A stretch of DNA of 26,916 bases, from positions 1 to 26,916 of the IMG/VR virus record IMGVR_UViG_3300031857_001136; one strand, given 5' to 3'. The position numbers and the translations under genes were made by a program. Source of the DNA: a virus. A model generated the notes under the pieces. The model searched no databases, was not told the origin of the DNA, and worked only from the letters and a program-made list of their open reading frames with translations. Within the stretch, counting starts at the first letter, position 1; each line of letters starts with the position of its first letter. Below, piece after piece: positions 5,567-26,479 of this stretch.

Positions 5567-5805
5567 TGGCAAGTCTATCAGAATATTTTAAGATACATCG
5601 ATATCAATCAAAATACAATATCGGTGATCGTGTTACAGGCAAATGGAACAAGATTCCTTTTGTGGGTACAGTGGGCAATGATACTGAAATCAATCAGATT
5701 GAAGGCCCTCGTATTAGTGTGCATTTAGATTTACCAATCAAGTATCAGAACAAATTTCATACAATTATATTTGTTAAGCATAAGGATGTTAAATATTTCA
5801 AATGA
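5566..5805 (+). CDS. Small beta-rich conserved phage protein (79 aa)
   Basis: TAATG overlap with the preceding gene and ATGA-type overlap with the next. Core YNIGDRVTGKWNKIPFVGTV, then GPRISVHLDLP and HTIIFVKHKDVKYF: a short all-beta pattern reminiscent of SH3/KOW-like barrels, with GDRV-G and a terminal V-H-D. Similar proteins occur in T4-like phages; role unknown. Confidence 0.78.
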   Translation: MASLSEYFKIHRYQSKYNIGDRVTGKWNKIPFVGTVGNDTEINQIEGPRISVHLDLPIKYQNKFHTIIFVKHKDVKYFK

Positions 5806-6647
5806 TACGACATGATTGGACACAACCATTACCAAAATCTGAGATTTTAGATTTGTCCAATAATGTATGCTATGATAAGTTTTTAGACAGAAACGTTGAA
5901 CATAGCGTATCTACCTATCCGGATGATGCAGAAGCATATAGATTGTTATCTCAATACTATAGTATTTCTCCTTATAACATAGCTATAGGTTATGGGTCAT
6001 CTGATATAATACTACGTATCTTAAAATTATATCAAGGTAACTCTTTAAAGATTGTTAGCCCAACTTGGCAACTGGCTCAACTATATGCACATCATATAGG
6101 GTATGAGATTAAAGATGATGCAGATATTTTATACATAGCAAACCCTAACGGCTTGACCGGTAAAGCCTTATCTAAAAATGAAATCTTGTCCCTATTACCC
6201 ACTTACAAGTTAGTCATAGTAGATGAAGCCTATTGTGATTTTAGTGATTGCTCTGTACTGGATACTTCTATTACTGCTGACAATTTAATTGTAGTGAAAA
6301 CACTAAGCAAAACGATAGCATCTCCTGGATTAAGATTTGGATACTGCTTTTCTAATTCAGATATAATTAATAGAATACAAAACGTAAGACCAGGCTATGT
6401 AACTACAAATGCTACTATACCTGCTCTTAACAAACTGTTACCTCAAATAGGTATGCATATTAGTCGTATGTTAGAAACTAGAAACTACATTGAGGATAAG
6501 TATGATGTAGTACCTTCTGAAGGAAATTATGTATTGTTTAAAACTAGATATAGTTTACCTGTTAAGATGAAGGAAGTTAACGAGTTGTTTAGAATGTCGT
6601 TAACTGATATTGATACATTCAAGAAATTCGAAAATGAACTCAGATGA
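5802..6647 (+). CDS. HisC-like PLP-dependent aminotransferase
   Basis: Fold-type I aminotransferase of the histidinol-phosphate type. The motifs run in order: YPDDAEAYRLLSQYY (39-53), the PLP-phosphate loop GYGSSDIILRIL (63-74), NPNGLTGK (114-121, for the usual NPNNPTG), DEAYCDF (141-147), the Schiff-base lysine in TLSKTIASPGLRFGY (Lys170), and a C-terminal strand LFRMSLTD with the carboxylate-binding Arg264. At 281 aa it is shorter than bacterial HisC (about 350), but both ends look intact. It overlaps the radical SAM gene, so the two probably act together. Amino acceptor unknown. Compared with the ligase it uses more AGA and ATA codons, suggesting later acquisition. Confidence 0.88.
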   Translation: MIRHDWTQPLPKSEILDLSNNVCYDKFLDRNVEHSVSTYPDDAEAYRLLSQYYSISPYNIAIGYGSSDIILRILKLYQGNSLKIVSPTWQLAQLYAHHIGYEIKDDADILYIANPNGLTGKALSKNEILSLLPTYKLVIVDEAYCDFSDCSVLDTSITADNLIVVKTLSKTIASPGLRFGYCFSNSDIINRIQNVRPGYVTTNATIPALNKLLPQIGMHISRMLETRNYIEDKYDVVPSEGNYVLFKTRYSLPVKMKEVNELFRMSLTDIDTFKKFENELR

Positions 6648-7437
6648 GTTAAGACGCCTGCAAGAACAGGGTGCGGTTGATTTATATTCTGCATTACGTA
6701 GTGTAGAAATCAATCCTACGGAACTATGTAACAGAGCCTGTTCCTTCTGTCCTCGAGTTGATCCTAATATCTACAAGAATCAGAAAAAACATATTGATCC
6801 CGATCTATGTACACTATTAGGTGAGCAGTTATCAACATTTGGGTTTGATGGCAGGATAGGCTTTGTGGGTTTTGGTGAACCATTGTTACATCCTAATATA
6901 GCAGAATGTGTGCGTAATATCAAACAATCATGCCCAACAGCTAAATGGATAGAGATTAATACAAACGGTGATTTGTTAACTAGAGACATTGCTATTGATC
7001 TTGCTAATGCAGGATGTACTACTATAACAGTTAGTATGTATGACACAGATGCTACTACTTATTTTATTGAAATGTTAGATGGTGTAAAGATAGAGCTAGT
7101 GTTAAAACATCAATATGATATTGCTAACATAAAAATAATTAATAGGATAGATATCATACAACAGACCAAGGTACTAAACATATCTCGTCCTTGTTACATC
7201 CCGTTTTATAAAATATTTGTTGATTGGAATGGAGATTACTTACTATGCCAACAAGATTGGGGCAAAACTACCAATGTGTATAACATAAAGAATACCCCGG
7301 TCATTGACTATTGGTTATCCAAATTGACTGAGTATAGAACGAATCTATCAATGGGTAATAGGATACAAAATCCATGTGACAAATGTGACATTGACGGGAC
7401 TGTATATGGGAAATCTAGTTTTGATTTGTTCGTATAA
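6634..7437 (+). CDS. Radical SAM protein with SPASM-like C-terminal Cys cluster (267 aa)
   Basis: The N-terminal radical SAM core carries ELCNRACSFCPR, giving Cys32-x3-Cys36-x2-Cys39 for the [4Fe-4S]-SAM cluster, followed by the SAM-contacting GFGEPLLHP (about 79-87) and EINTNGDLLT. The C-terminal part adds Cys187, Cys205 (LLCQQDW) and Cys248-x2-Cys251 (PCDKC) in the spacing of SPASM/twitch auxiliary clusters, which often occur on peptide- or small-molecule-modifying enzymes. The start is the ATG at 6634, 14 bases inside the upstream gene; an upstream in-frame TTG at 6610 is less likely. Translationally coupled to the aminotransferase; substrate unknown. Confidence 0.87.
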   Translation: MNSDELRRLQEQGAVDLYSALRSVEINPTELCNRACSFCPRVDPNIYKNQKKHIDPDLCTLLGEQLSTFGFDGRIGFVGFGEPLLHPNIAECVRNIKQSCPTAKWIEINTNGDLLTRDIAIDLANAGCTTITVSMYDTDATTYFIEMLDGVKIELVLKHQYDIANIKIINRIDIIQQTKVLNISRPCYIPFYKIFVDWNGDYLLCQQDWGKTTNVYNIKNTPVIDYWLSKLTEYRTNLSMGNRIQNPCDKCDIDGTVYGKSSFDLFV

Positions 7438-9366: not shown

Positions 9367-10857
9367 ATGTATAAAAAATATTTGTCCCTATCTTCCCTAA
9401 CACTGTTAGTAGCACTAGCATTAAGTACAGTAGCAGCCTACTATAGTATTATTGGTTTAACTGCTATCTTTGCTGGTGCGGTTATTCCTGTTATTATAAT
9501 GGGAGGTATACTAGAAATAGGCAAGATTACTACTACGGTATGGTTACGAAAATATTGGAATCGTTGTGGCTTCCTACTTAAACTCTATCTTGTACCTGCT
9601 GTTATTGCATTAGCATTACTTACTAGCATGGGTATATTTGGCTTCCTAAGTAAAGCACATATGGATCAAGGAATTACAACAGGGGATATACAAGCCAAAA
9701 TTGCAATCTACGATGAGAAGATTAAAGTATCACAGGACACTATAGATGTTAATCGCAAAGCACTTAAACAACTTGATGAGGCAGTGGACCAAGTTATGGG
9801 CCGCTCGACTTCAGAAGCGGGTGCAGATAAAGCCGTTGCTATACGCAAAACTCAAGCAAAGGAAAGGACTAGACTCCTTACGGAAATTGCGTCCGAACAG
9901 AAAACAATTACTAGAATACGAGAAGAACGAGCGCCCATTGCGGCTGAAGTACGCAAGGTCGAAGCGGAAGTTGGCCCTATCAAATACATTGCCGCATTGA
10001 TTTACGGAGACAATGCCGACAATAATATGTTAGAGTCGGCCGTACGTTGGGTTATTATTTTACTTGTAATTGTATTTGACCCACTTGCTATCGCTTTAGT
10101 ATTAGCTGCCAATGCAAGTAGAGAATGGGATAAAGAGGAGGGTGACAGCCCTCTAGGGACCGAAACACCAACGACTCCCACTGTCACTGAACCAGCATAT
10201 GAGCCTGATGATGGGCCTTTAACAGAAGAACAAATTGAAGAAATACAAAATTCTGCGGAACCACCTATAGGAGAGGTAGTAACTAAAGACGAATTGTTTC
10301 CTGAAGAATCTGTCTTAGACAAACATCCTTACCTAGCCAAACCGTTTGTTCATTTTGAAAATCTAGAACCTATTGTAGGAAAAAAAGAACCTGAACCAAA
10401 GAAATTTGACATAGATAATATAACAGTTGATTCTACTGAGATAATTGTTGCTACTATAAAAGAACCTGATATTGTGACAACTGAATATTCAGTTACAGGA
10501 GATTACATCGAAGTTGAAGGTAAACAGATGCACAAAAGGATAGCAGGAGACTTATATCCCGACATGTTAAAAATTGTAGTAGATGGTGAGAATTCAATTA
10601 GTGTTAATTTTGGTACTGCATTCCCTAAATATGCAAAGCGAGGTGACCTGTTTACCCGTGTAGATTCATTACCAAATCGTGTATACAAATTTGACGGATC
10701 ACGTTGGTTAGAAGTTAACAAAGAAAATAGCATATCATATCTGACACAAACTAAGTATGTTGAATATCTTATCAACAAAATTGCAACAGGTGAATATGAT
10801 CCTGAGTTATTAACTGACGCAGAAAATCAAGCCATCACAGAATTCATAAAAAAATAA
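9367..10857 (+). CDS. Multi-pass membrane protein with long coiled coil (496 aa)
   Basis: Transmembrane segments are visible at about 8-27, 29-50 and 72-94, then a charged coiled coil (about 105-205) with a heptad-like run of E, K, R and I, then a further membrane segment at about 224-248 (WVIILLVIVFDPLAIALVL). The remaining C-terminal half is soluble: an acidic Pro/Thr linker (260-330), then a mixed beta region ending FIKK. The coiled coil lies between membrane segments three and four, so it is probably exposed on one side of the membrane as a spacer or oligomerisation rod. There is no SD (AGG abuts the ATG). Role unknown; an inner-membrane remodelling or superinfection protein are options. 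Confidence 0.82.
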   Translation: MYKKYLSLSSLTLLVALALSTVAAYYSIIGLTAIFAGAVIPVIIMGGILEIGKITTTVWLRKYWNRCGFLLKLYLVPAVIALALLTSMGIFGFLSKAHMDQGITTGDIQAKIAIYDEKIKVSQDTIDVNRKALKQLDEAVDQVMGRSTSEAGADKAVAIRKTQAKERTRLLTEIASEQKTITRIREERAPIAAEVRKVEAEVGPIKYIAALIYGDNADNNMLESAVRWVIILLVIVFDPLAIALVLAANASREWDKEEGDSPLGTETPTTPTVTEPAYEPDDGPLTEEQIEEIQNSAEPPIGEVVTKDELFPEESVLDKHPYLAKPFVHFENLEPIVGKKEPEPKKFDIDNITVDSTEIIVATIKEPDIVTTEYSVTGDYIEVEGKQMHKRIAGDLYPDMLKIVVDGENSISVNFGTAFPKYAKRGDLFTRVDSLPNRVYKFDGSRWLEVNKENSISYLTQTKYVEYLINKIATGEYDPELLTDAENQAITEFIKK

Positions 10858-10900: not shown

Positions 10901-12100
10901 ATGACAGAAGAAACCAAATTAAAACATTGTAGCTTTTGCGGCAACAGTAAAGAAGCAGTTAAAAAATTAGTTGTAGGTGAGAATGTAGCTATATGTAGTG
11001 ATTGTGTAGAGCTATGTCAAGACCTTATTGCTGATGAAGTAGGCGACACCAAAGAAGAATTACAACCCGAATATGATGCTGAAACTATTAAAAAGTTTTT
11101 AGATGAGCATGTTATTGGGCAAGATTCAGCTAAGATGGTTATGAGTGTTGCTATTGCAAATCACTATAAACGTATTACTAATCCTCCAAAGAACTTAGAG
11201 ATTCAAAAGGGAAATGTTCTTATAGTAGGACCTACGGGTTCAGGTAAAACATTATTAGCTAAAACAGCTGCCAAGTATCTAAACGTCCCTTTCATAGTAG
11301 CTGACGCAACTAGCTTAACAGAAGCAGGTTATGTCGGTGATGATGTAGAATCAATGATTAGTATGCTATTGAATGCCGCCGGTGGTGACAAAGACTTAGC
11401 AGAACGTGGAATCGTATTTGTTGATGAAATTGACAAGATTGCACGTAAGGGTGAAAGTACTAGTATTACCCGTGACGTATCCGGAGAGGGAGTTCAACAA
11501 GCATTACTAAAGTTAGTTGAAGGTACTGTATGTCGTATTCCTAATAGTGGTGGAAGAAAACATCCTGGATCTGATATGTCTGAGATTAATACTAAAAATA
11601 TCTTATTCATTGCAGGTGGTGCGTTTGTTGGATTAAAAGAACTTATCACCAATCGTGTTAATGGTACAAGCATTGGATTTAATGCTAGTGTTAAAGACAC
11701 TAGAATTGAAGGTGACATGCGTGATGTTCGCCCGGATGATTTAACTAAATTTGGTATGATTCCTGAATTTATTGGACGTTTTACTACTACTGTCAGCATT
11801 GACAATCTTAATAAAGAACAATTAATAAGGGTCTTAACTGACGTTAAGAACAATTACATTAGCCAATATAAATATCTATTTGAGTTAGATAATATTACAC
11901 TAGAATTTACTGACAATGCGTTGGATCAAATTGCAGAAAACACTATCTCTCTTAAAACAGGGGCACGTGGACTTCATACTGAGATTGAAAGAGTATTGAT
12001 GCCACATATGTTTAAAGTAAGAACGTATGCTAAAAACGGGATTAAAACACTAAATATAGATAGAGTTGATGTAATTACACCAAAACCATTGTATGAGTAA
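10901..12100 (+). CDS. clpX: ClpX, ATPase subunit of the ClpXP protease
   Basis: AAA+ unfoldase that recognises tagged substrates and feeds them to ClpP. The N-terminal zinc-binding domain has Cys10/Cys13 and Cys32/Cys35. Walker A GPTGSGKT (110-117), pore-1 loop GYVG (143-146), Walker B IVFVDEID (171-178), RKH loop GRKHP (218-222), arginine-finger region PEFIGRF (288-294) and sensor-2 GARGL (354-358) are all intact. The IGF loop that docks on ClpP is present at 258-260. Length 399 aa against 424 in E. coli. No SD precedes the ATG; TTAAATA abuts it. It overlaps rpsU by 8 bases. Every catalytic element is present, so it should be active with the phage or host ClpP. Confidence 0.97.
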   Translation: MTEETKLKHCSFCGNSKEAVKKLVVGENVAICSDCVELCQDLIADEVGDTKEELQPEYDAETIKKFLDEHVIGQDSAKMVMSVAIANHYKRITNPPKNLEIQKGNVLIVGPTGSGKTLLAKTAAKYLNVPFIVADATSLTEAGYVGDDVESMISMLLNAAGGDKDLAERGIVFVDEIDKIARKGESTSITRDVSGEGVQQALLKLVEGTVCRIPNSGGRKHPGSDMSEINTKNILFIAGGAFVGLKELITNRVNGTSIGFNASVKDTRIEGDMRDVRPDDLTKFGMIPEFIGRFTTTVSIDNLNKEQLIRVLTDVKNNYISQYKYLFELDNITLEFTDNALDQIAENTISLKTGARGLHTEIERVLMPHMFKVRTYAKNGIKTLNIDRVDVITPKPLYE

Positions 12101-12314
12101 AAAAGGCAGACGAATTTTTGTTACAGACGGAAATGTAGATAAAGCTCTACGCAAGTTTAAGAAAAAGATAACCGAATTAGGTTTACTTCAAGAAGTCCGT
12201 GACCGCCAAGAATTTGTCAAACCTACTGTCAAACGTAAAATAGCAAAAAGCCAAGCTGTTCGCAGGTGGAAAAAGCACTTGCGTGACCAATCATTACCAC
12301 CAAAACAGTTTTAA
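12093..12314 (+). CDS. rpsU: Ribosomal protein bS21 homologue
   Basis: A 73-aa, strongly basic protein. NVDKALRKFKKKITELGLL, EVRDRQEFVKPTVKRKIAK and QAVRRWKKHL align along the length of bacterial bS21 (E. coli equivalents: VALRRFKRSCEKAG, EVRRREFYEKPTTERKRAK, AVKRHAKKL). bS21 sits near the anti-Shine-Dalgarno region of the 30S subunit and affects initiation; phage copies are known in aquatic phages and may favour phage mRNAs. The start overlaps the clpX end by 8 bases, so translation is coupled. The N-terminal MSKKGRRIFVTDG is longer and more basic than in E. coli. Confidence 0.9.
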   Translation: MSKKGRRIFVTDGNVDKALRKFKKKITELGLLQEVRDRQEFVKPTVKRKIAKSQAVRRWKKHLRDQSLPPKQF

Positions 12315-12315
12315 C

Positions 12316-12323
12316 CTAAATAC
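12316..12323 (+). promoter_or_regulatory. T4-late-like CTAAATAC
   Basis: CTAAATACTAT just after the rpsU stop resembles the T4 late -10 consensus. It lies about 95 bases upstream of hsp20. Low confidence, because the motif is short and AT-rich. Confidence 0.3.
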
Positions 12324-12343
12324 TATATTTTTTTACGTATTTG

Positions 12344-12352
12344 TGTTATAAT
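12344..12352 (+). promoter_or_regulatory. Extended -10 promoter for hsp20
   Basis: TGTTATAAT is an extended -10 element (TGn plus TATAAT) with no good -35. ATAAATAC (12351-12358) overlaps it, so it could instead be read as a late-type site. Either reading starts the message at about 12359-12363, directly before a stem-loop. Confidence 0.5.
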
Positions 12353-12362
12353 AAATACATAT

Positions 12363-12388
12363 TGTAGATGCCGATGGTCGGGTCTACA
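12363..12388 (+). promoter_or_regulatory. 5'-leader stem-loop upstream of hsp20
   Basis: TGTAGA (12363-12368) pairs with TCTACA (12383-12388), with an inner CCG/CGG helix. It begins within a few bases of the predicted transcript start, 30 bases before the SD. Confidence 0.5.
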
Positions 12389-12418
12389 CATAGTCATCTT
12401 GCTTAATAGGAGAAAAAC

Positions 12419-12856
12419 ATGACAAAAACTTTAACCCTTCGTTCCCTCGACATTCCGTCAATTCACAAATTTGGTATCGGTTTCGATAATATGTTTGATG
12501 AACTAATGCGAATTAACAATCAACAATCACTTAACTATCCCCCATACAACATTATAAAAACATCAGAAGATACCTTTTATATTGAAGTAGCAGTGGCTGG
12601 TTTCGGTGAAGGTGAAGTTGAAATTAACATTGACAATCAAGTGTTAGTTATCAAAGGTAAAAAAGAAGCAGAAATTATTGCTGAATATTTACATCAAGGG
12701 ATCAGTAACAGGGACTTCATGCGTGAATTTACTTTAGCAGAACATGTTGAAGTAGTTAATGCTGTCAATATGAATGGTATTCTTACTATCTATTTGGAGC
12801 GCAAACTCCCTGAAGAAAAGAAACCCAAGTCTATTGCAATTTCTTACACTAAATAA
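12419..12856 (+). CDS. hsp20: Hsp20 / IbpA-type small heat-shock protein
   Basis: ATP-independent chaperone that holds unfolding proteins. The alpha-crystallin domain spans about residues 40-130: YNIIKTSEDTFYIEVAVAGF, VEINIDNQVLVIKGKK, EYLHQGISNRDFMREFTLAE, then NGILTIYLER. The C-terminal tail carries KSIAI, an I-x-I-type oligomerisation motif. Length 145 aa is typical of IbpA (137 aa). SD TAGGAGA lies 7 bases before the ATG. Hsp20 genes are common in T4-like cyanophages, so this is family-typical, but here it sits between the bS21 and ClpS genes. Confidence 0.95.
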   Translation: MTKTLTLRSLDIPSIHKFGIGFDNMFDELMRINNQQSLNYPPYNIIKTSEDTFYIEVAVAGFGEGEVEINIDNQVLVIKGKKEAEIIAEYLHQGISNRDFMREFTLAEHVEVVNAVNMNGILTIYLERKLPEEKKPKSIAISYTK

Positions 12857-12862
12857 TATAAT
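12834..12862 (+). promoter_or_regulatory. Sigma70-type promoter for clpS
   Basis: TTGCAA (12834-12839), 17-base spacer, TATAAT (12857-12862). It spans the end of hsp20. A 6-bp inverted repeat ACACTA/TAGTGT (12846-12867) overlaps the -10 region. Confidence 0.6.
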
Positions 12863-12880
12863 AGTGTTTCGTTAAATAAA

Positions 12881-12904
12881 AGTGTGCGAGGAAACTTGCA
12901 CACT
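12881..12904 (+). promoter_or_regulatory. 10-bp stem-loop with GAAA tetraloop in the clpS leader
   Basis: AGTGTGCGAG (12881-12890), loop GAAA (12891-12894), CTTGCACACT (12895-12904); nine Watson-Crick pairs and one G-T. The loop is a GNRA type. No T-run follows, so it is not a terminator. It ends 17 bases before the clpS ATG. Confidence 0.8.
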
Positions 12905-12921
12905 ACTTCAAGGTATAAATC

Positions 12922-13227
12922 ATGGCACAGACCGAATCAAAAATTAAAATTAAACCTAATCTTAAATTACCAGAACCATCTATGTTCAAGGTAATTTATA
13001 TGAATGATGAACATACTAGTATGGATTTCGTAGTGCGTAGTTTAGTAGATCATTTCGGTCACAATACTGATACTGCCGCACATATTACTACAGGTATACA
13101 TGAGCAGGGCAGTGCTGTCGTAGCAGTTCTACCGTATGAAATTGCAGAACAAAAGGGTATTGAGGTAACACTTGATGCACGTAACGAGGGATTTCCGTTA
13201 CAAGTAAAGATTGAGCCAGAAGTTTAA
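12922..13227 (+). CDS. clpS: ClpS, N-degron adaptor
   Basis: Adaptor that delivers N-end-rule substrates, in bacteria to ClpA(P). The conserved core begins FKVIYMNDEHTSMDFVV (22-38) and contains the N-degron pocket residues Asn28, Asp29 and Met34; His60 in GIHEQG is the matching pocket histidine (E. coli Asn34, Asp35, Met40, His66). PYEIAEQKG (71-79) and the C-terminal FPLQVKIEP strand complete the fold. Length 101 aa against 106 in E. coli. The 21-residue N-terminal extension, which acts on the ATPase in E. coli, is Lys/Pro-rich here. No ClpA gene is in the window. SD is weak (AAGG, 8 bases before the ATG). Confidence 0.93.
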   Translation: MAQTESKIKIKPNLKLPEPSMFKVIYMNDEHTSMDFVVRSLVDHFGHNTDTAAHITTGIHEQGSAVVAVLPYEIAEQKGIEVTLDARNEGFPLQVKIEPEV

Positions 13228-13233
13228 ACTTCT
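13218..13233. repeat. Perfect 16-bp palindrome at a tail-to-tail gene junction
   Basis: AGAAGTTTAAACTTCT contains the stop codons of clpS (+, 13225-13227) and the minus-strand gene (13224-13226), overlapping at TTTAAA. No T-tract; it may form a hairpin in both transcripts. Confidence 0.7.
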
Positions 13234-13919
13234 ATTTCTATTCGTTTTGGCCAATATGGATTTTTGTTAAAACAAGCGTTATTAACATAGTTGATACCGT
13301 TAATATTGGTATCAACCATTTTGTTTGAGTTACCATATATCCAAGTAACTATCTTGTTTTCTGTATCATTAATTAGAGCAGAGTTCAATCCAACGTAATC
13401 AGGTAAATTAGGTTCTTCCCCGTAGAATAAGTCAGCACAGGGAACACAACTAGACACAATTACAATCTTTTTTACATCCACGTGTAATTGCAATTTTTCT
13501 ATAGTTGTGTGTAGATAGTCTTGATCACCGTGTGAGTGATACCCAAGACGTATTTCATCGTCGGGATCTATCGGGGTATAGTTGCCATACCAACCGTTAA
13601 CTGCAACTAATGCTATACCATCTACGATAACAACATTGTTATGAAGATATACAACATTTTTTATTTTACTGGCTATCTTAGCTATTTGGTCTATCCTAGA
13701 TGCTTGTAACATTAATGACCCTATCTCCATAGAACCGTCAATGAAGAATACTCCATGATACTGGGCACTTAAATGTTCTAAAGTTTCTTCTAAAACTTTA
13801 AAATCATCGGTTATATTGCCTGCTACAATACAAAATAAACTAGTTGGTTTTCCTTCCCAATCTAGTTTATATTTGTAAGATAGTTCTAGGTCGCTAATTA
13901 TATCGAAACCTACCACCAT
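13224..13919 (-). CDS. Pseudo-metallophosphoesterase (calcineurin-like fold, metal ligands lost)
   Basis: The 231-aa protein follows the order of the intact metallophosphoesterase at 18780, but each metal-site motif is altered. SDLHLE becomes SDLELS (8-13), SGD becomes AGN (33-35), GNHE becomes GSME (62-65), HHAPS becomes SCVPC (157-161) and HGHMH becomes YGNSN (195-199). Structural segments are kept: NVVYLHNNVVIVDGIALVAV then NGWYGN, KIVIVSS, VTWIYGN. Thus the fold is probably retained while two-metal catalysis is lost, suggesting a binding or regulatory role. Expressed from the minus strand downstream of the Lys/Pro/Ala protein; no SD is visible and AATAAAC precedes the ATG. Identification rests on alignment by eye. 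Confidence 0.75.
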   Translation of the reverse strand: MVVGFDIISDLELSYKYKLDWEGKPTSLFCIVAGNITDDFKVLEETLEHLSAQYHGVFFIDGSMEIGSLMLQASRIDQIAKIASKIKNVVYLHNNVVIVDGIALVAVNGWYGNYTPIDPDDEIRLGYHSHGDQDYLHTTIEKLQLHVDVKKIVIVSSCVPCADLFYGEEPNLPDYVGLNSALINDTENKIVTWIYGNSNKMVDTNINGINYVNNACFNKNPYWPKRIEIEV

Positions 13920-13927
13920 GCAGTTTA

Positions 13928-14248
13928 TTACTGGGTAGCTTTTGGTGCTTTGGGTTTTGCTGGGGCTTTTTTAGCAACAGCTGGGGCTTTTGGCTTTGCT
14001 GGGGCTTTTGGCTTTGCTGGGGCTTTTGGCTTTTTAGATATCGGTGCTTGCTCAACTACCCCTGCAGGTACTACAGCTTCTGGAACAACTACAACGGTTT
14101 CAACAGCTGGTGCAGAATTGACAACCAAAGGAATTGGTGTAGTAGCTGCCGGCTCCGGTACTTTGTACGGGGCTGACACGTTTGCCTCAGTTGTTTCTAC
14201 AGGTTTGGCTTCGGGAACACCAAATAATTTTTTCAAAAAGTTTAACAT
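13928..14248 (-). CDS. Basic Lys/Pro/Ala-tailed protein (106 aa)
   Basis: I chose the ATG at 14248 because AAGGAGAAAATTATG gives an excellent SD; an in-frame ATG at 14266 lies before the SD. The N-terminus MLNFLKKLFGVPEAKP is a short amphipathic basic helix. The middle is Pro/Val/Thr-rich and uncharged, and the last 35 residues are repeats of PKAPAK, like histone-H1-type or bacterial nucleoid-protein tails. Electrostatic DNA or membrane binding is likely; the exact role is unknown. The repeats are encoded by perfect 18-bp tandem units. TAAATA just upstream of the SD could be part of a late promoter. Confidence 0.8.
   Translation of the reverse strand: MLNFLKKLFGVPEAKPVETTEANVSAPYKVPEPAATTPIPLVVNSAPAVETVVVVPEAVVPAGVVEQAPISKKPKAPAKPKAPAKPKAPAVAKKAPAKPKAPKATQ
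13980..14033. repeat. Three perfect 18-bp tandem repeats
   Basis: Unit GCTGGGGCTTTTGGCTTT at 13980-13997, 13998-14015 and 14016-14033. On the minus strand each encodes KPKAPA-type hexapeptides of the basic tail. Copy number could change by slippage. Confidence 0.95.
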
Positions 14249-14307
14249 AATTTTCTCCTTATACATCTATTTACTCTAGGAAAACCATAAAGATAAAATT
14301 TATAATC

Positions 14308-14322: not shown

Positions 14323-14814
14323 ATGTTTCACGGATCACCTACTCTAAAAGAACTAATGGCTTTGCCATTACCCACTATGCGTGAGCAAAAACGTCTAATG
14401 TTTAGGCCCTCACAATGGCAAGTTTCACACGTTTATACACTGATAAACGATAATGTTTTTCATAATATGTTAAAAAAACCGGAACTCATACTAAAATCAA
14501 GATGTAGAAAATATTGGGGAATGTGTATAGGATCACATGACAAGCTAAAAAACGGTAGTTATTGTAAGATTGAACTTATGGACAAGTGGATTAGTCCACA
14601 ATGGATGATAGCTACATTGGCACATGAAATGGTTCATCAATATCAATGGGATATAGCAGGGCCTGAACGTGAGGCAGAGGGATTAAATGCTATTATGAGT
14701 CATGGTCCAAGTTTCTTTCAGTTTCGTGATTTATTAAAAGAACACAATATCCCATTAAAAACGGCGCATTCTCAGCGCCGTTGGTATAAGCATCAAAGCT
14801 TGTTCAAATGCTAA
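14323..14814 (+). CDS. SprT-like zinc metalloprotease
   Basis: The zinc motif HEMVH (101-105) lies in LAHEMVHQYQWD, and a third ligand His127 is in MSHGPSFFQF, as in the SprT/Spartan family (HExxH plus a downstream HGxxF). An upstream beta region (CRKYWGMCIG, CKIELMDKWI) matches the family core. There is no signal peptide, so it acts in the cytoplasm. SprT-like proteases of other organisms digest DNA-protein crosslinks; here a role in replication or clearing host proteins is inferred. 163 aa, close to E. coli SprT (165 aa). The stop is directly adjacent to the stop of the convergent gene (TAATTA). In-frame ATGs at codons 12, 19 and 26 are alternative starts. Confidence 0.87.
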   Translation: MFHGSPTLKELMALPLPTMREQKRLMFRPSQWQVSHVYTLINDNVFHNMLKKPELILKSRCRKYWGMCIGSHDKLKNGSYCKIELMDKWISPQWMIATLAHEMVHQYQWDIAGPEREAEGLNAIMSHGPSFFQFRDLLKEHNIPLKTAHSQRRWYKHQSLFKC

Positions 14815-15976: not shown

Positions 15977-16573
15977 ATGAGTTTAGTGCCTATCGTTGTT
16001 GAGACTACAAGTAAAGGTGAACGTAGTTACGACATTTATTCACGTTTGATGCGTGACCGTGTAATTTTGCTTGAAGGCGAAGTACATGACCAAATGGCAA
16101 ATTTAATTGTTGCCCAACTATTGTTCTTAGAAAGTGAAGATAGTCATAAAGATATTTCAATGTATATCAATAGTCCAGGTGGTTCAGTTACTGCTGGTAT
16201 GGCAATCTATGATTGTATGCAATTTGTTAGCCCTGATGTACAAACAATTGTTATGGGTCAAGCCTGTTCAATGGGTAGTTTGCTTGGTCAAGCAGGAGCT
16301 AAAGGTAAGCGTTTTATCCTGCCCAATGCACGACATATGATTCACCAGCCCTCAGGTGGCGCACGTGGTCAAGCTACTGATATGGAAATTCAGGTTAAAG
16401 AGATTTTAGCCATGAAAAAGACATTGACACAAATCTATGTAGACCATAATAGTGCAGGAAAATCGTTTGAGGAGCTTGCAAAAGACATGGAACGTGACTA
16501 TTTTATGAGTGCAAGTGAGGCCGTAGCATATGGCCTAGCTGATAAAGTGTTGCAAAAACGCAACATGTCCTAA
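15977..16573 (+). CDS. clpP: ClpP protease subunit
   Basis: Serine peptidase that forms the degradation chamber of ClpXP/ClpAP. Catalytic Ser98 lies in GQACSMGS, His123 in MIHQPSGG and Asp174 in MERDYFMSA. The oxyanion/strand motif [10 protein letters not shown] (65-74) is intact. The protein starts [20 protein letters not shown], aligning with the mature N-terminus of E. coli ClpP (ALVPMVIEQTSRGERS), so it lacks the 14-residue propeptide and needs no self-cleavage. 198 aa. SD AAAGGAAAG precedes the ATG. It stands 3.9 kb from clpX with minus-strand genes between, so the two are not in one operon. Its stop is followed directly by an early-type promoter. Confidence 0.97.
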
Positions 16574-16894: not shown

Positions 16895-16923
16895 TTGACA
16901 TTAAATGGTTTTGGGTATATAAT
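16895..16923 (+). promoter_or_regulatory. Early-type sigma70 promoter, copy 5
   Basis: TTGACA (16895-16900), spacer starting TTAAATGG, TATAAT (16918-16923), 17-base spacing. Confidence 0.92.
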
Positions 16924-16954
16924 AGAATCTTAAACAGTCAACTAAAGGACACAA

Positions 16955-17557: not shown

Positions 17558-17761
17558 ATGGCGTATACTGTTTTCAAACACAATAAAGAATTCGGGCCAC
17601 GTAAAGGTCTCGAAGGACCCTTTCACTACCCAAATGGTCAAGTGTTGTATTATGACAACAAACAAGGTGAGTATTACGACCCACTGACCGACTTCTACGT
17701 ACCGGACGAGGACGTGGCCCAGCTTCAAAATATGATTTTTGATGCACTACGAAAAGGTTGA
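17558..17761 (+). CDS. Small hypothetical protein (67 aa)
   Basis: SD TAAGGA precedes the ATG. Aromatic-rich: MAYTVFKHNKEFGPRKG, PFHYPNGQVLYYDNKQGEYY, DPLTDFYVPDEDVAQLQN. The repeated YYDN/YYDP pattern suggests a small beta fold. The TGA stop (17759-17761) lies inside the TTGACA box of promoter copy 7. Confidence 0.75.
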   Translation: MAYTVFKHNKEFGPRKGLEGPFHYPNGQVLYYDNKQGEYYDPLTDFYVPDEDVAQLQNMIFDALRKG

Positions 17762-17786
17762 CAATAAATCACTTTGGGTATATAAT
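17758..17786 (+). promoter_or_regulatory. Early-type sigma70 promoter, copy 7
   Basis: TTGACA (17758-17763), 17-base spacer starting ATAAATCA, TATAAT (17781-17786). The -35 box contains the stop of the upstream gene. Confidence 0.92.
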
Positions 17787-17820
17787 AGAATCTTAAACAG
17801 TTAAATAAAGGACTTACAAA

Positions 17821-18649: not shown

Positions 18650-18783
18650 AATACATTATCAATTGGTCACAAAGTTATACATCATGGGTGACACATGCTG
18701 AAAAACTTTTAGAGTTAAGAATTGAACTAAGTGGTCTAAAAGACGCAAAAAAAGTAATTGAGAATATTAAAAAGAATTTATGA
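18646..18783 (+). CDS. Small helical protein (45 aa)
   Basis: ATGA overlaps with both neighbours (start 18646, stop 18781-18783). Starts MKYIINWSQSYTSWVTHAEK, then a Leu/Lys/Glu-rich helix (KLLELRIELSGLKDAKKVIE). The double coupling makes it a likely real gene. Function unknown. Confidence 0.7.
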   Translation: MKYIINWSQSYTSWVTHAEKLLELRIELSGLKDAKKVIENIKKNL

Positions 18784-19628
18784 AGATAGCATTGTGTAGT
18801 GACTTACACTTAGAATTCGAAGATATCAACCTCATCAATATAGAAAATGCTGAGGTTCTTATCCTTTCAGGTGACATTATGTTAGCGGAAGATTTACATA
18901 ATCATCCTCCTACTGTAGTTAGCCCATACGAATCTTATACTGAATTAGGTACAAGACAAAAAGCCGCACAACGATTCCGTAATTTTCTCAGTAGAGTAAG
19001 CAATGAGTTCCCTCATGTTGTTTATGTTGCAGGTAACCATGAATTCTATCACGGCAGATGGAATCAAAGTTTAGAACATCTACGTACTGAATGTGCCAGA
19101 TATCCTAACGTTTACTTTTTGGAACGTGAGATTAAGGTTATCAATGAAGTGTCCTTTATTGGTGCTACACTATGGACTGATTGTAATAAAAGTGACCCAT
19201 TAACATTACATGCATTATCCGACATGATGAATGATTACCGTGTCATTCGTAATGATGATTTAAATTACAGTAAATTACGTCCTGCACATACTGTAAAACG
19301 TCACCAAGAAACACTAGGTTATTTGAAAGCAGTTCTTCCTGATATTAAATACAATAAGATTGTATTTGTTGGGCATCATGCTCCCAGTGCAATGAGTACC
19401 CATGATAGATATAAACACAACGTTCATTCTATAATGAATGGTGGTTATCATAGTGAATTGAGTGAGTTCATTTTAAATCATCCTGAGATTGTATTATGGA
19501 CACACGGTCACATGCATGACCCATTTGATTACATGATTGGAACAACAAGAGTGGTTTGTAATCCACGCGGGTATTTAGGGGCTGACCCGCAAGCAGAAGT
19601 TTTTAAATTAAAATTTATTGATATATGA
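18780..19628 (+). CDS. Calcineurin-like metallophosphoesterase, intact active site (282 aa)
   Basis: All motifs of the two-metal phosphoesterase fold are present in order: DLHLE (Asp8, His10), SGDIM (Asp32), GNHEFY (Asn86, His87), GHHAPS (His199/His200) and HGHMH (His242, His244, His246). Likely a phosphodiesterase or phosphatase on nucleotides or nucleic acid; no specific substrate can be read. Coupled by ATGA to both neighbours. It is the best template for the ligand-less relative at 13224. Confidence 0.92.
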   Translation: MKIALCSDLHLEFEDINLINIENAEVLILSGDIMLAEDLHNHPPTVVSPYESYTELGTRQKAAQRFRNFLSRVSNEFPHVVYVAGNHEFYHGRWNQSLEHLRTECARYPNVYFLEREIKVINEVSFIGATLWTDCNKSDPLTLHALSDMMNDYRVIRNDDLNYSKLRPAHTVKRHQETLGYLKAVLPDIKYNKIVFVGHHAPSAMSTHDRYKHNVHSIMNGGYHSELSEFILNHPEIVLWTHGHMHDPFDYMIGTTRVVCNPRGYLGADPQAEVFKLKFIDI

Positions 19629-20763: not shown

Positions 20764-21276
20764 ATGAGTTTGTTTCACAAGATTATGAATAAGTTAGGCA
20801 GATACCGCCTTATCCCAGATCGTAGAACAGGTGCTGACTATATGCACCGTTATTATCTTTTTCTCAAAGACCGTATTTGTTTCCCCTTTAATGTCACATT
20901 ACACAAGATTGTTCGTAGTGATGATCCTATTATGCATGATCATCCCTGGGCTTACATAACTATTATATTGAAAGGTGGTTATTGGGAGCATACACCTGTG
21001 TTTAATAATGATGGCAAAATTCTTACAGAATTTCAAACATGGCGTGGTCCTGGTAGTATCATTAAACGTAGTGCAGGTGAATATCACTGGCTTGAACTTG
21101 ATGAAAATGTAGGTCCTGTAACAACACTATTTTTTATGGGGAAGCAACAACGTGAATGGGGATTTTTAGTACAAACTAAAAAAGGCATACATCGTTGGAT
21201 TAAACATACGGACTATCTAAGTGATTGGAAATCCTATCACGAAAAATATGTAGTAGCTAAGTCAAAGAAAATATAA
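20764..21276 (+). CDS. Cupin-fold protein (170 aa)
   Basis: SD TAAGGAG precedes the ATG. A cupin first motif HDHPWAYITIILKGGYWE (residues about 58-75) and a second motif GSIIKRSAGEYHWLEL give a likely single-metal beta-barrel with two His from HDH and one from YHW. The flanks are basic. Cupins include sugar epimerases, dioxygenases and binding proteins; substrate unknown. Similar cupins occur in T4-like phages. The stop overlaps the next start (TAATG). Confidence 0.8.
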   Translation: MSLFHKIMNKLGRYRLIPDRRTGADYMHRYYLFLKDRICFPFNVTLHKIVRSDDPIMHDHPWAYITIILKGGYWEHTPVFNNDGKILTEFQTWRGPGSIIKRSAGEYHWLELDENVGPVTTLFFMGKQQREWGFLVQTKKGIHRWIKHTDYLSDWKSYHEKYVVAKSKKI

Positions 21277-24175: not shown

Positions 24176-24483
24176 GTACTTGGTTTTCTAGTATAATCAA
24201 CTAAATTAAAATCTTCGCCAGAACCCACTAAACAAGTGATATCACCTTTAGTAGTGATTATAGACCAAGATTTAGTATTTGGATTAATCCACAAAGACAT
24301 TATACTACGAGCTTGGTCTGCTGTTTTGCCAATCAACAGTGGGCTCTCTCTGTATTTCTCTTTGAGTTTACCTACAATTTCTTTTGTATCTGAACAATAA
24401 AGTTCAGCGGTAATCATCTCTCCGGCGTTACTTTGTAGTGGCACGATAGACGCCATCCCAATCAGTAGGTAAATTGTTTTCAC
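24172..24483 (-). CDS. Small secreted/periplasmic protein (103 aa)
   Basis: Start is GTG at 24483 with SD AGGAG at normal spacing, both inside the end of the cyclase gene (56-base overlap). The N-terminus MKTIYLLIGMASIVPLQSNA is a typical signal peptide, probably cleaved after Ala20. The mature part contains Cys29 and Cys84, which could form a disulphide, and WSIITTKGDITCLVGSGEDF at the C-terminal side. Small exported proteins of this pattern occur in marine T4-like phages; function unknown. Translation is likely linked to the cyclase, which also faces the periplasm. Confidence 0.75.
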   Translation of the reverse strand: MKTIYLLIGMASIVPLQSNAGEMITAELYCSDTKEIVGKLKEKYRESPLLIGKTADQARSIMSLWINPNTKSWSIITTKGDITCLVGSGEDFNLVDYTRKPST

Positions 24484-26479
24484 GTAGTTCTCCTATTCTT
24501 TCTATCATTATATCATAATAGTCATCCATATGCGAATCAAATTCACCCTTTAGTTGGTCTATCATATGCAATGCCTGATCCCATTTCTGTTCACGGTAAT
24601 AATCTATCATCAAATCATGTATCTCACGTGCTGATAGATATTCTGTAATAGTACTAGGATCAGTCTTTAATGGTGTGTAGATATTCAATCCAATTGTCTT
24701 ACCCTTTACAGCAATACAATCTAACTCTAATGTAAAGATTTCATCTTTAACTTGCTCATTAGTATTAGGACCAATGATACATAACACACCATATCCTTTA
24801 GTCTGGCCTTCTAGCCTAGCCGCAGTAGATACACTATCACCTAATACGTCATAACCAAACTTAGTTTTAGCACCAATGTTACCGATCAATGTTTCACCTG
24901 TGTTAACACCGGCACCCATACCAACTGGTGGACGACCACTCGCTGTTAACTCTTTATTGAATTCTTCAATAGCATCAATCATTTGCATTGCAGTTATAAC
25001 CGCTGTTACTGCATGTTTAGGATCGTCTAATGGTGCACCATGTACATGTAAACTTGCATCACCGATGAACTTAATTAATGTACCATCGTTCTTTAATACA
25101 GGAACACTTAATGCAGTCATGTAGTCATTCATAATCTGTGTCAAGCCTTCAACGTCATCTCCGAATGACTCGCCTAAACTAGTGAAGCCACGCAAATCAG
25201 TCATAACAATAGATAATTCTCTACGTTCTCCTCCTAACTTAATTAGTGAAGGATCTTTCTGTAATCTTTCAACTATAGTTGGATTGACATAACTTCCAAA
25301 CTGTTTCTTAATTTGTTGTTTCTGTAAGAATTCACTTACAAACTTGACAGTATAAGCATGAAGATAAACCAAACCAATCCCAGTAACAGGGGCGGTAATA
25401 TCATAGAGCCATAGATTGGATGTGAATAGATACGATGCAATAAAATGACTAGAACCAAGAACAATAATAACTGGAATAAAAGCATATGTCCACCTTGATA
25501 ATAATATAACTAATAAACCTAAAGCTAGTATAGCGATAAGTTCCACACCATCAGCATAATCAGGACGCACAATAACAACATTGTTAAGCATCGTTCCTAT
25601 TATACTAGCTTGAACATCATGTGGCCATACTGATCCTTTACTTGTCGGTACAGGATTGTTTAATCCACTCGCAGTTAAGCCCACTATAACAATAGCACCA
25701 CCAAAGTCTTTTGGTAGATCCATTAAACTTACTGGTTTGCTTTGTTGACTGTAATCAATCCAAATACGTCCTAAATTATCAGTAATAATAGTACCAAACT
25801 TTGGTATACGCATTTTTTCTACACCATTCTCGTTAAGCTTAACTTGGAATGTTGTATCTCCTGCGGCCACTCTTAGTACTTCCATACTTAAACTTGGGTA
25901 GAGTTTACCATCTACACTAGCAATCAATGGGATACGTCTATTGACACCATCTATCTCTGGTAATGTATTAGCTGTACCTACACCATATGCACTGTTTTCT
26001 AATAGAGGAACGTTAGCAATGATTCCTGGATACTGAACTATTCTATCTAACCATTCAGGAGCTAATACTGCTGCACCTGGATTACGTGGAATATTCTTTG
26101 TTTTGTCACTAGGTATATTAGGAAGAATAACAGGATACTGTTTCATAATATATGCTAACTTACCATCTTGACCACTTCTATCACTATCAGGCATTAGTAC
26201 GTTGAATACAACAAGACCTGCATTACGTTTGTATAAGTCTTCTATTATTTTAGCGTATTCGTTGCGTGGTAATGGCCACTGACCATACTTGTCCAATGTT
26301 GCTTCATCTACATTGACTGTGTAGATGTTGTTTTCTGTTGGAGCTTTATTAGTGATAAGAGTATCAAAATATCTTAATCTAACTGATTCTATGAATTGAG
26401 AATCTGCTACACGAACCGAAAGAACTAGTACTAGCGTTAGTAGCGCCGACCAGGGACTGAGAATTATTTTTTTAATCAT
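24428..26479 (-). CDS. CHASE2-sensor transmembrane adenylate/guanylate cyclase (683 aa)
   Basis: N-terminal membrane segment (about 10-22), an extracytoplasmic CHASE2 domain (about 28-305; VNVDEATLDKYGQWPLPR and VIVGLTASGL are family hallmarks), three membrane segments (about 311-329, 333-352, 358-376), a class III cyclase domain (about 420-605) and a helical tail (611-683). Metal-binding Asp428 (TDLRGFTS) and Asp474 (KFIGDAS), base-contacting Lys470 and Asp548, and transition-state Arg555 are present; Lys/Asp suggests ATP. The usual catalytic Asn is Ser551 (GDSVSTAARLE). It should sense a periplasmic signal and make cAMP, perhaps weakly. Such a receptor is unexpected in a phage. Confidence 0.92.
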   Translation of the reverse strand: MIKKIILSPWSALLTLVLVLSVRVADSQFIESVRLRYFDTLITNKAPTENNIYTVNVDEATLDKYGQWPLPRNEYAKIIEDLYKRNAGLVVFNVLMPDSDRSGQDGKLAYIMKQYPVILPNIPSDKTKNIPRNPGAAVLAPEWLDRIVQYPGIIANVPLLENSAYGVGTANTLPEIDGVNRRIPLIASVDGKLYPSLSMEVLRVAAGDTTFQVKLNENGVEKMRIPKFGTIITDNLGRIWIDYSQQSKPVSLMDLPKDFGGAIVIVGLTASGLNNPVPTSKGSVWPHDVQASIIGTMLNNVVIVRPDYADGVELIAILALGLLVILLSRWTYAFIPVIIVLGSSHFIASYLFTSNLWLYDITAPVTGIGLVYLHAYTVKFVSEFLQKQQIKKQFGSYVNPTIVERLQKDPSLIKLGGERRELSIVMTDLRGFTSLGESFGDDVEGLTQIMNDYMTALSVPVLKNDGTLIKFIGDASLHVHGAPLDDPKHAVTAVITAMQMIDAIEEFNKELTASGRPPVGMGAGVNTGETLIGNIGAKTKFGYDVLGDSVSTAARLEGQTKGYGVLCIIGPNTNEQVKDEIFTLELDCIAVKGKTIGLNIYTPLKTDPSTITEYLSAREIHDLMIDYYREQKWDQALHMIDQLKGEFDSHMDDYYDIMIERIGELRENNLPTDWDGVYRATTK

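Follow-up and report, generated by a model that had tools for sequence, protein, structure and literature searches.

In retromer, VPS29 is described as a dead phosphoesterase fold that acts as a scaffold (Collins 2005, as cited in PMC7539009), and an inactivated calcineurin-like phosphoesterase domain has been reported for Dpb2 (PMC7308368). Among phage proteins, Gp47 of Bxb1 is a metallophosphoesterase (MPE)-like recombination directionality factor without phosphoesterase activity, as described in PMC12287305. Gp48 of mycobacteriophage A10ZJ24 is likewise MPE-like and has a host-directed role for which the conserved MPE motifs matter (PMC12287305). Moreover, Chen et al. 2022 (PMC9723584) described phages encoding the ribosomal protein bS21, with new clades predicted to infect Bacteroidetes; their paper nowhere uses the word 'phosphoesterase'. 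A phage pseudo-MPE was not found described in the open literature, and the family reported here has no name in any of the family libraries that were searched.

In our study we analyzed a virus record of 26.9 kb (26,916 nucleotides), referred to as the window. Its bS21 gene and the Hsp20 and Clp genes nearby recall the phages of Chen et al. 2022 (PMC9723584), with gene neighbourhoods that are shared in part. The features considered below are as follows; 'with room' refers to loci with room for the gene in question.

10901..12100, plus strand: ClpX with zinc finger and AAA domains (PF07724, PF06689); at 43/43 loci with room
12093..12314, plus strand: ribosomal protein bS21 (PF01165, E=1e-15)
12419..12856, plus strand: Hsp20 small heat-shock protein (PF00011); at 89/89 loci with room
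12922..13227, plus strand: ClpS (PF02617, E=6e-24), convergent with pMPE
13224..13919, minus strand: pMPE, pseudo-metallophosphoesterase of 231 aa; AlphaFold2 model with MPE fold, 93-member family, 1/8 active-site residues kept
13320..13454, minus strand: SSCVP and YGNSNK in place of motifs IV and V, whose His and GHxH are lost; K200 is new and near-invariant
13722..13739, minus strand: former motif III, now DGSMEI; GNHE and with it the catalytic His are gone
13815..13892, minus strand: former motifs I and II, SDLE (DxH lost) and AGN (GD lost), with a conserved WEGKPTSL in between
13928..14266, minus strand: KAP protein with amphipathic N-terminal helix (MLNFLKKLFG), APYKV motif and basic Lys/Pro/Ala tail
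14323..14814, plus strand: SprT-like metallopeptidase (PF10263, E=1.6e-6)
15977..16573, plus strand: ClpP (PF00574, E=6e-81); at 74/74 loci with room
18780..19628, plus strand: intact metallophosphoesterase of another family (PF00149, E=4e-9; phrog_1649, 2.5e-50)

The initial annotation of this DNA had described pMPE as an MPE that keeps its fold and reading frame but has every metal motif replaced. The frame is indeed complete, with 231 aa from the ATG start to the TAA stop on the minus strand, and all five replacements that had been named relative to the enzyme at 18780 are present: SDLH to SDLE, AGD to AGN, GNHE to GSME, HHAPS to SCVPC and HGHMH to YGNSN. The change of DxH to DxE is real in the window copy but is not the norm of the family, which is DxN (79/93). 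The same motifs align with those of the MPE of Sinorhizobium phage Phosso, where SDLH/AGD/DGNHE/THSAP/YGHTH stands opposite SDLE/AGN/DGSME/SSCVP/YGNSN in pMPE. Nevertheless, the earlier hand alignment alone is thin evidence, because pairwise similarity is weak (BLASTP against the 18780 protein, E=0.027 across 38 aa) and Pfam gave no Metallophos (PF00149) match for the window protein. Nor did Metallophos figure in the family lists of the 93 members, and hmmscan against PHROG matched phrog_1649 with the 18780 protein and not with pMPE. Taken together, searches of the sequence alone against Pfam, PHROGs and PDB sequence profiles were of no help in detecting the fold.

Clearer results were obtained with more sensitive comparisons. 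Searching annotated phage MPEs by tblastn matched pMPE to Phosso at E=1e-5 (pairwise 2e-12) and more weakly to Agrobacterium phage Atu_ph07 (1e-3) and Caulobacter phage Cr30 (5e-3). In hhalign the pMPE profile aligned with intact phage MPEs at 99.5% (E=1e-22) and with the 18780 family at 97.2% (E=3e-11). An AlphaFold2 model made from the family alignment reached a mean pLDDT of 91.0 and a pTM of 0.89. The top Foldseek matches of this model in the PDB were MPEs, namely PptH (6unc, 4e-8) and Dbr1; further PDB matches included Rv0805 and Mre11, with VPS29 lower in the Foldseek list, and the matches in BFVD were viral MPEs. VIA-align placed the model on PptH (6unc) with a Z of 20.8 and 3.1 A over 216 residues, and on MPPED2 with a Z of 17.9. 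A calcineurin-like metallophosphoesterase fold is therefore predicted with high confidence for pMPE; an unrelated fold was not obtained, in agreement with the earlier view.

The loss of the active site is general. IMG/VR searches together with a clpS-based search yielded 95 distinct proteins, 93 of them full length, all on viral contigs and 39-57% identical to the window pMPE. We scored eight active-site residues (D,H / D / N,H / H / H,H): each of the 93 members keeps 0-3 of them and is without the metal site, whereas all eight are present in 38 of 39 intact relatives and the 39th (L226) is without one. The bridging Asp is Asn in every member (N35, 93/93), while D10 is retained in 92/93; the catalytic His is missing in 92/93, GHxH has almost always lost both of its His to substitution, and the motif IV His is retained in 20/93. 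Among the eight ligand columns, six (12, 63, 64, 157, 197, 199) vary over several residue types. As a set the eight have a mean variability percentile of 0.44, and random column sets were equally high in 73% of draws. Other positions are strongly conserved. W21, S27 and L28 are invariant, and W21, S27, Y54, Y135, Q144, H146, D185, K189, W193, Y222, K225 and R226 make up a near-invariant set. Fourteen positions are fixed in pMPE and uncommon in intact relatives (G4, F19, K24, N35, G56, F58, V96, Y135, L143, H146, D148, E187, K200 and R226), among which K200 is a near-fixed new basic residue immediately after former motif V.

Nei-Gojobori dN/dS was mostly 0.04-0.13 for pMPE pairs with dS <0.45; across all 909 pairs (dS 0.15-1.5), a range where dS nears saturation, the median was 0.31. 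These values indicate that the fold is being maintained. pMPE is thus a clade-wide pseudoenzyme under purifying selection and not a single decayed gene. Accordingly, the earlier proposal of selection for a non-catalytic role is supported by dN/dS, by the AlphaFold2 fold and by the 0-3 of eight residues left in the members. The survey of homologues that had been suggested found no restored metal site among the family members; the relatives with an intact site branch outside and represent the ancestral state.

The ends of clpS and pMPE overlap by 4 nt in the window, GTTTAAAC, and a convergent, adjacent clpS was found at 94/94 pMPE loci with room. Conversely, pMPE was present at 79 of 80 loci found through clpS, the exception being a contig end. 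At 13290-13316 on the plus strand, in clpS orientation, a hairpin of ten pairs with a T-rich tail after it falls within the 3' end of pMPE; it is possibly the clpS terminator read antisense to pMPE. On the other side, the KAP gene ends 8 nt ahead of the pMPE start, and the two are likely on one transcript. A promoter scan gave sites no more numerous than in shuffles. Across loci, KAP-type proteins are about 100 aa long. They have a transmembrane or amphipathic helix at the N-terminus and a basic Lys/Pro/Ala tail, and an APYKV-like motif is often present. A co-directional upstream gene of this type was detected at 87/91 loci by a K+A+P composition cut-off, and the other four look alike by eye, so the described position of pMPE beside clpS and a Lys/Pro/Ala gene applies far beyond the window. 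This placement is the strongest functional clue for pMPE. Since pMPE and clpS are convergent and do not form one operon, any functional tie to Clp is drawn from linkage. Besides, six KAP genes (L011, L086, L087, L116, L131 and L137) contain a CGCGRSxxGxCVGLH motif that resembles CDGSH-type iron-sulphur motifs.

The initial annotation had compared pMPE with the enzyme at 18780 as its relative. A different origin emerged from one intact relative, L199, which scored far above all others against the pMPE profile (129 bits). Its locus contains a convergent clpS, with an exonuclease-like gene in between, followed by hsp20, bS21, a membrane protein that matches window positions 9367-10857, and a DNA ligase. 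With the L199 MPE as query we found twelve further loci, in all of which the MPE directly adjoins clpS, and the L199 clpS as query added two further intact MPE loci. These clpS-linked relatives comprise nine distinct intact MPE proteins, with L225/L226 as the exception: here every metal ligand is kept, but GNNE replaces GNHE and the catalytic His is gone. A stand-alone protein of about 119 aa that resembles part of the CHASE2-cyclase protein of the window (24428-26479) lies beside the clpS-linked MPEs L199, L220 and L226.

An IQ-TREE tree was built without the motif columns; the search was a quick one and leaves 26 of the 72 forks open, and the branches cited here are strong ones. The pMPE clade received an SH-aLRT of 99 and its grouping with L226 as sister 100, followed by the intact clpS-linked MPEs. 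The 18780-type enzyme lies far off as an outgroup, with Caulobacter phage Cr30 on its branch, which rules out the 18780 enzyme as the parent: it belongs to a separate, distant family. The parent lineage of pMPE is the MPE at the clpS-hsp20 locus of related phages. From this topology the metal site was lost once in the present sampling, just above the L225/L226 intermediate. The order in which this happened, the catalytic His first and then the whole two-metal site, is suggested by that one intermediate. The KAP gene arises on about the stretch of the tree where the metal site disappears: it lies directly upstream at the basal pMPE locus L288, and none was seen at the intermediate L226 or at the intact loci L199, L220 and L232, the loci inspected. 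KAP gain and site loss amount to one coincident event, so this association carries no statistics. The pair is also not absolute, as no KAP gene stands beside the nested pMPE L309.

Our preferred reading, to which we give about an even chance, is that the pMPE fold now serves as a non-catalytic protein-interaction platform that works with KAP for the Clp/Hsp20/bS21 island. An active MPE once adjoined clpS in the phage lineage. As the tree with its intermediate suggests, the catalytic His went first, a state still present in L225/L226. The loss of the whole two-metal site, a single event, would have followed, and since then pMPE has been kept folded but non-catalytic. In roughly that part of the tree the gene for a membrane-anchored protein with a basic Lys/Pro/Ala tail appears immediately upstream. 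pMPE may bind this co-encoded, membrane-tethered KAP, and the pair may serve the ClpX-bS21-Hsp20-ClpS-SprT-ClpP island, for example by holding the Clp machinery or a target protein at the membrane. An ancient enzyme has probably been turned into a non-catalytic part of another machine. Contacts with proteins are favoured over a small-molecule pocket by the pattern of conservation: averaged over the former ligand columns it is no higher than in the remaining columns, and many of the invariant residues are found at other places in the sequence. Against the platform, fixed D10 and N35 and near-fixed K200 could equally fit a re-modelled ligand pocket.

Such a pocket is central to a reading in which the emptied site, with D10, N35 and K200, acts as a sponge that binds a host defence nucleotide signal or an RNA end without cleaving it. 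Ancestral MPEs bind phosphoesters, sequestration of this kind is an established phage anti-defence strategy (Acb4, PMC11722364), and an action on defence nucleotides has been suggested for calcineurin-like phosphodiesterases of jumbo phages (PMC7824862). The retention of N35 in all members and of D10 in all but one, with a new basic K200 beside the old metal site, would also fit. However, in a specific pocket one would expect more conservation than is seen here, with six variable ligand columns in a set that does no better than random ones, and both the membrane-anchored partner and the linkage to clpS are left unexplained. We therefore regard nucleotide binding as rather unlikely, and as less likely than the protein-interaction platform. 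Of the initial annotation, the kept fold, lost site and non-catalytic selection stand, the 18780 enzyme as parent does not, and the nucleotide binding that had been offered as one such role is leaned against by the ligand columns. A more specific and stronger form of the scaffold is that pMPE and KAP bring membrane or nucleoid targets to ClpXP(S) of the phage or host. The strict linkage to clpX, clpS, clpP and hsp20 is in line with it, KAP would supply the anchor and a flexible basic tail, and jumbo phages are believed to turn their ClpP and ClpS on proteins of the host (PMC7824862). But the evidence is one of linkage, with clpS and pMPE convergent, and a wider phage group with clpS-hsp20-bS21 has different genes after clpS and no MPE there, which means that the Clp set can do without pMPE. 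It is unlikely on this evidence that the two proteins form a new phage-specific adaptor steering targets to phage ClpX, ClpS and ClpP. ClpX, ClpP and ClpS are encoded in the window (10901-13227, 15977-16573), where no ClpA was seen; the usual partner of ClpS is ClpA or ClpC.

The presence of an intact MPE in all 12 large pMPE contigs examined raises a further reading, namely that pMPE inhibits an active MPE of the 18780 type or of the host, by forming mixed oligomers with it or by blocking its target. Many MPEs are dimeric. Yet the relationship between pMPE and the 18780 family is distant and shared dimer surfaces are unlikely, which makes such a decoy quite improbable. Catalysis that is residual or re-invented, using one metal or none, might draw on the retained D10 and E65 and on the motif IV His in a minority of members (20/93), but no conserved ligand combination is able to hold two metals and the catalytic His is absent from 92/93; we consider it very improbable. 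Motif loss alone would also be seen in a neutral relic, an enzyme on its way out. This is contradicted by the selection data, with 93 intact full-length frames, a close-pair dN/dS mostly around 0.1 and a new set of fixed residues, and its probability is practically negligible.

The carriers of pMPE are a large group of uncultured phages, mostly from freshwater. The window itself shares 99.99% identity over 16.7 kb with another IMG/VR contig, and several family members sit on contigs of 263-525 kb, so that the carriers include huge phages. pMPE together with an intact MPE was found in 12/12 large contigs. The 524,565 bp contig of L047 (G001) has two pMPE and two intact MPE genes in opposite orientation toward its two ends, which may come from the joining of two genomes, from a long inverted repeat or from misassembly. 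No relative of the family was confirmed on bacterial genome contigs, and isolate phages gave no member and weak matches of 20-29% identity, the best of which are MPEs with intact motifs. As clues to the host, ClpP similarity pointed to mixed phyla at 55-66%, from which no host was assigned, and a search for pmoC in the 12 large contigs gave no match, with a control that likewise matched nowhere.

Further observations concern the rest of the window. A phage-encoded protein with CHASE2 and nucleotide-cyclase domains (PF05226, PF00211) lies at 24428-26479 on the minus strand. At 5802-7437 an aminotransferase (PF00155) overlaps a radical-SAM/SPASM protein, a pair unusual for a phage, and at 20764-21276 on the plus strand a PHROG match to the cysteine dioxygenase-like phrog_4786 was obtained (5e-36). 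A 56-bp repeat, 89% identical between its copies at 16895-16950 and 17758-17813, is intergenic and lies just ahead of two starts; it is perhaps a repeated promoter or regulatory element.

Intact, half-way (His gone, metal ligands kept) and emptied states of one phage enzyme thus survive at one locus. As the three states are syntenic, the steps from an enzyme to a non-catalytic protein can be read and tested. Moreover, the ties to clpS, clpX, clpP, hsp20, bS21 and KAP point to an undescribed component of the takeover of host proteostasis by large phages.

Compared with known systems, the nearest relatives on the tree are the intact clpS-linked MPEs and L225/L226, for which no published description was found. 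They share the locus with pMPE (clpS, hsp20 and often bS21) but keep all metal ligands, and KAP was not found at the loci inspected. The phrog_1649 MPE at 18780 belongs to the same superfamily and occurs in the same genomes; in contrast to pMPE it has an intact metal site, a distant branch and another locus. The two-metal DxH/GD/GNH(E/D)/H/GHxH site and the PF00149 match of the enzymes are both absent from pMPE, which has what characterizes a pseudo-MPE, namely an MPE fold in a conserved family that purifying selection maintains although all its members have lost the site. Among phage proteins, Gp48 of A10ZJ24 depends on its MPE motifs while pMPE is without them (PMC12287305). Bxb1 Gp47, as described in PMC12287305, is closer in being an MPE-type phage protein that works without catalysis; it belongs to a mycobacteriophage and has another role, whereas in pMPE the ligand set itself is gone throughout the clade. 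VPS29 and Dpb2 are eukaryotic and not close in sequence, and VPS29 was a lower-ranked structural match. Nevertheless, they too combine an MPE fold with a degraded active site and use it for protein interactions, and by analogy the use of pMPE may be likened to that of VPS29 and of the eukaryotic DNA polymerase B-subunits with their dead phosphoesterase domains.
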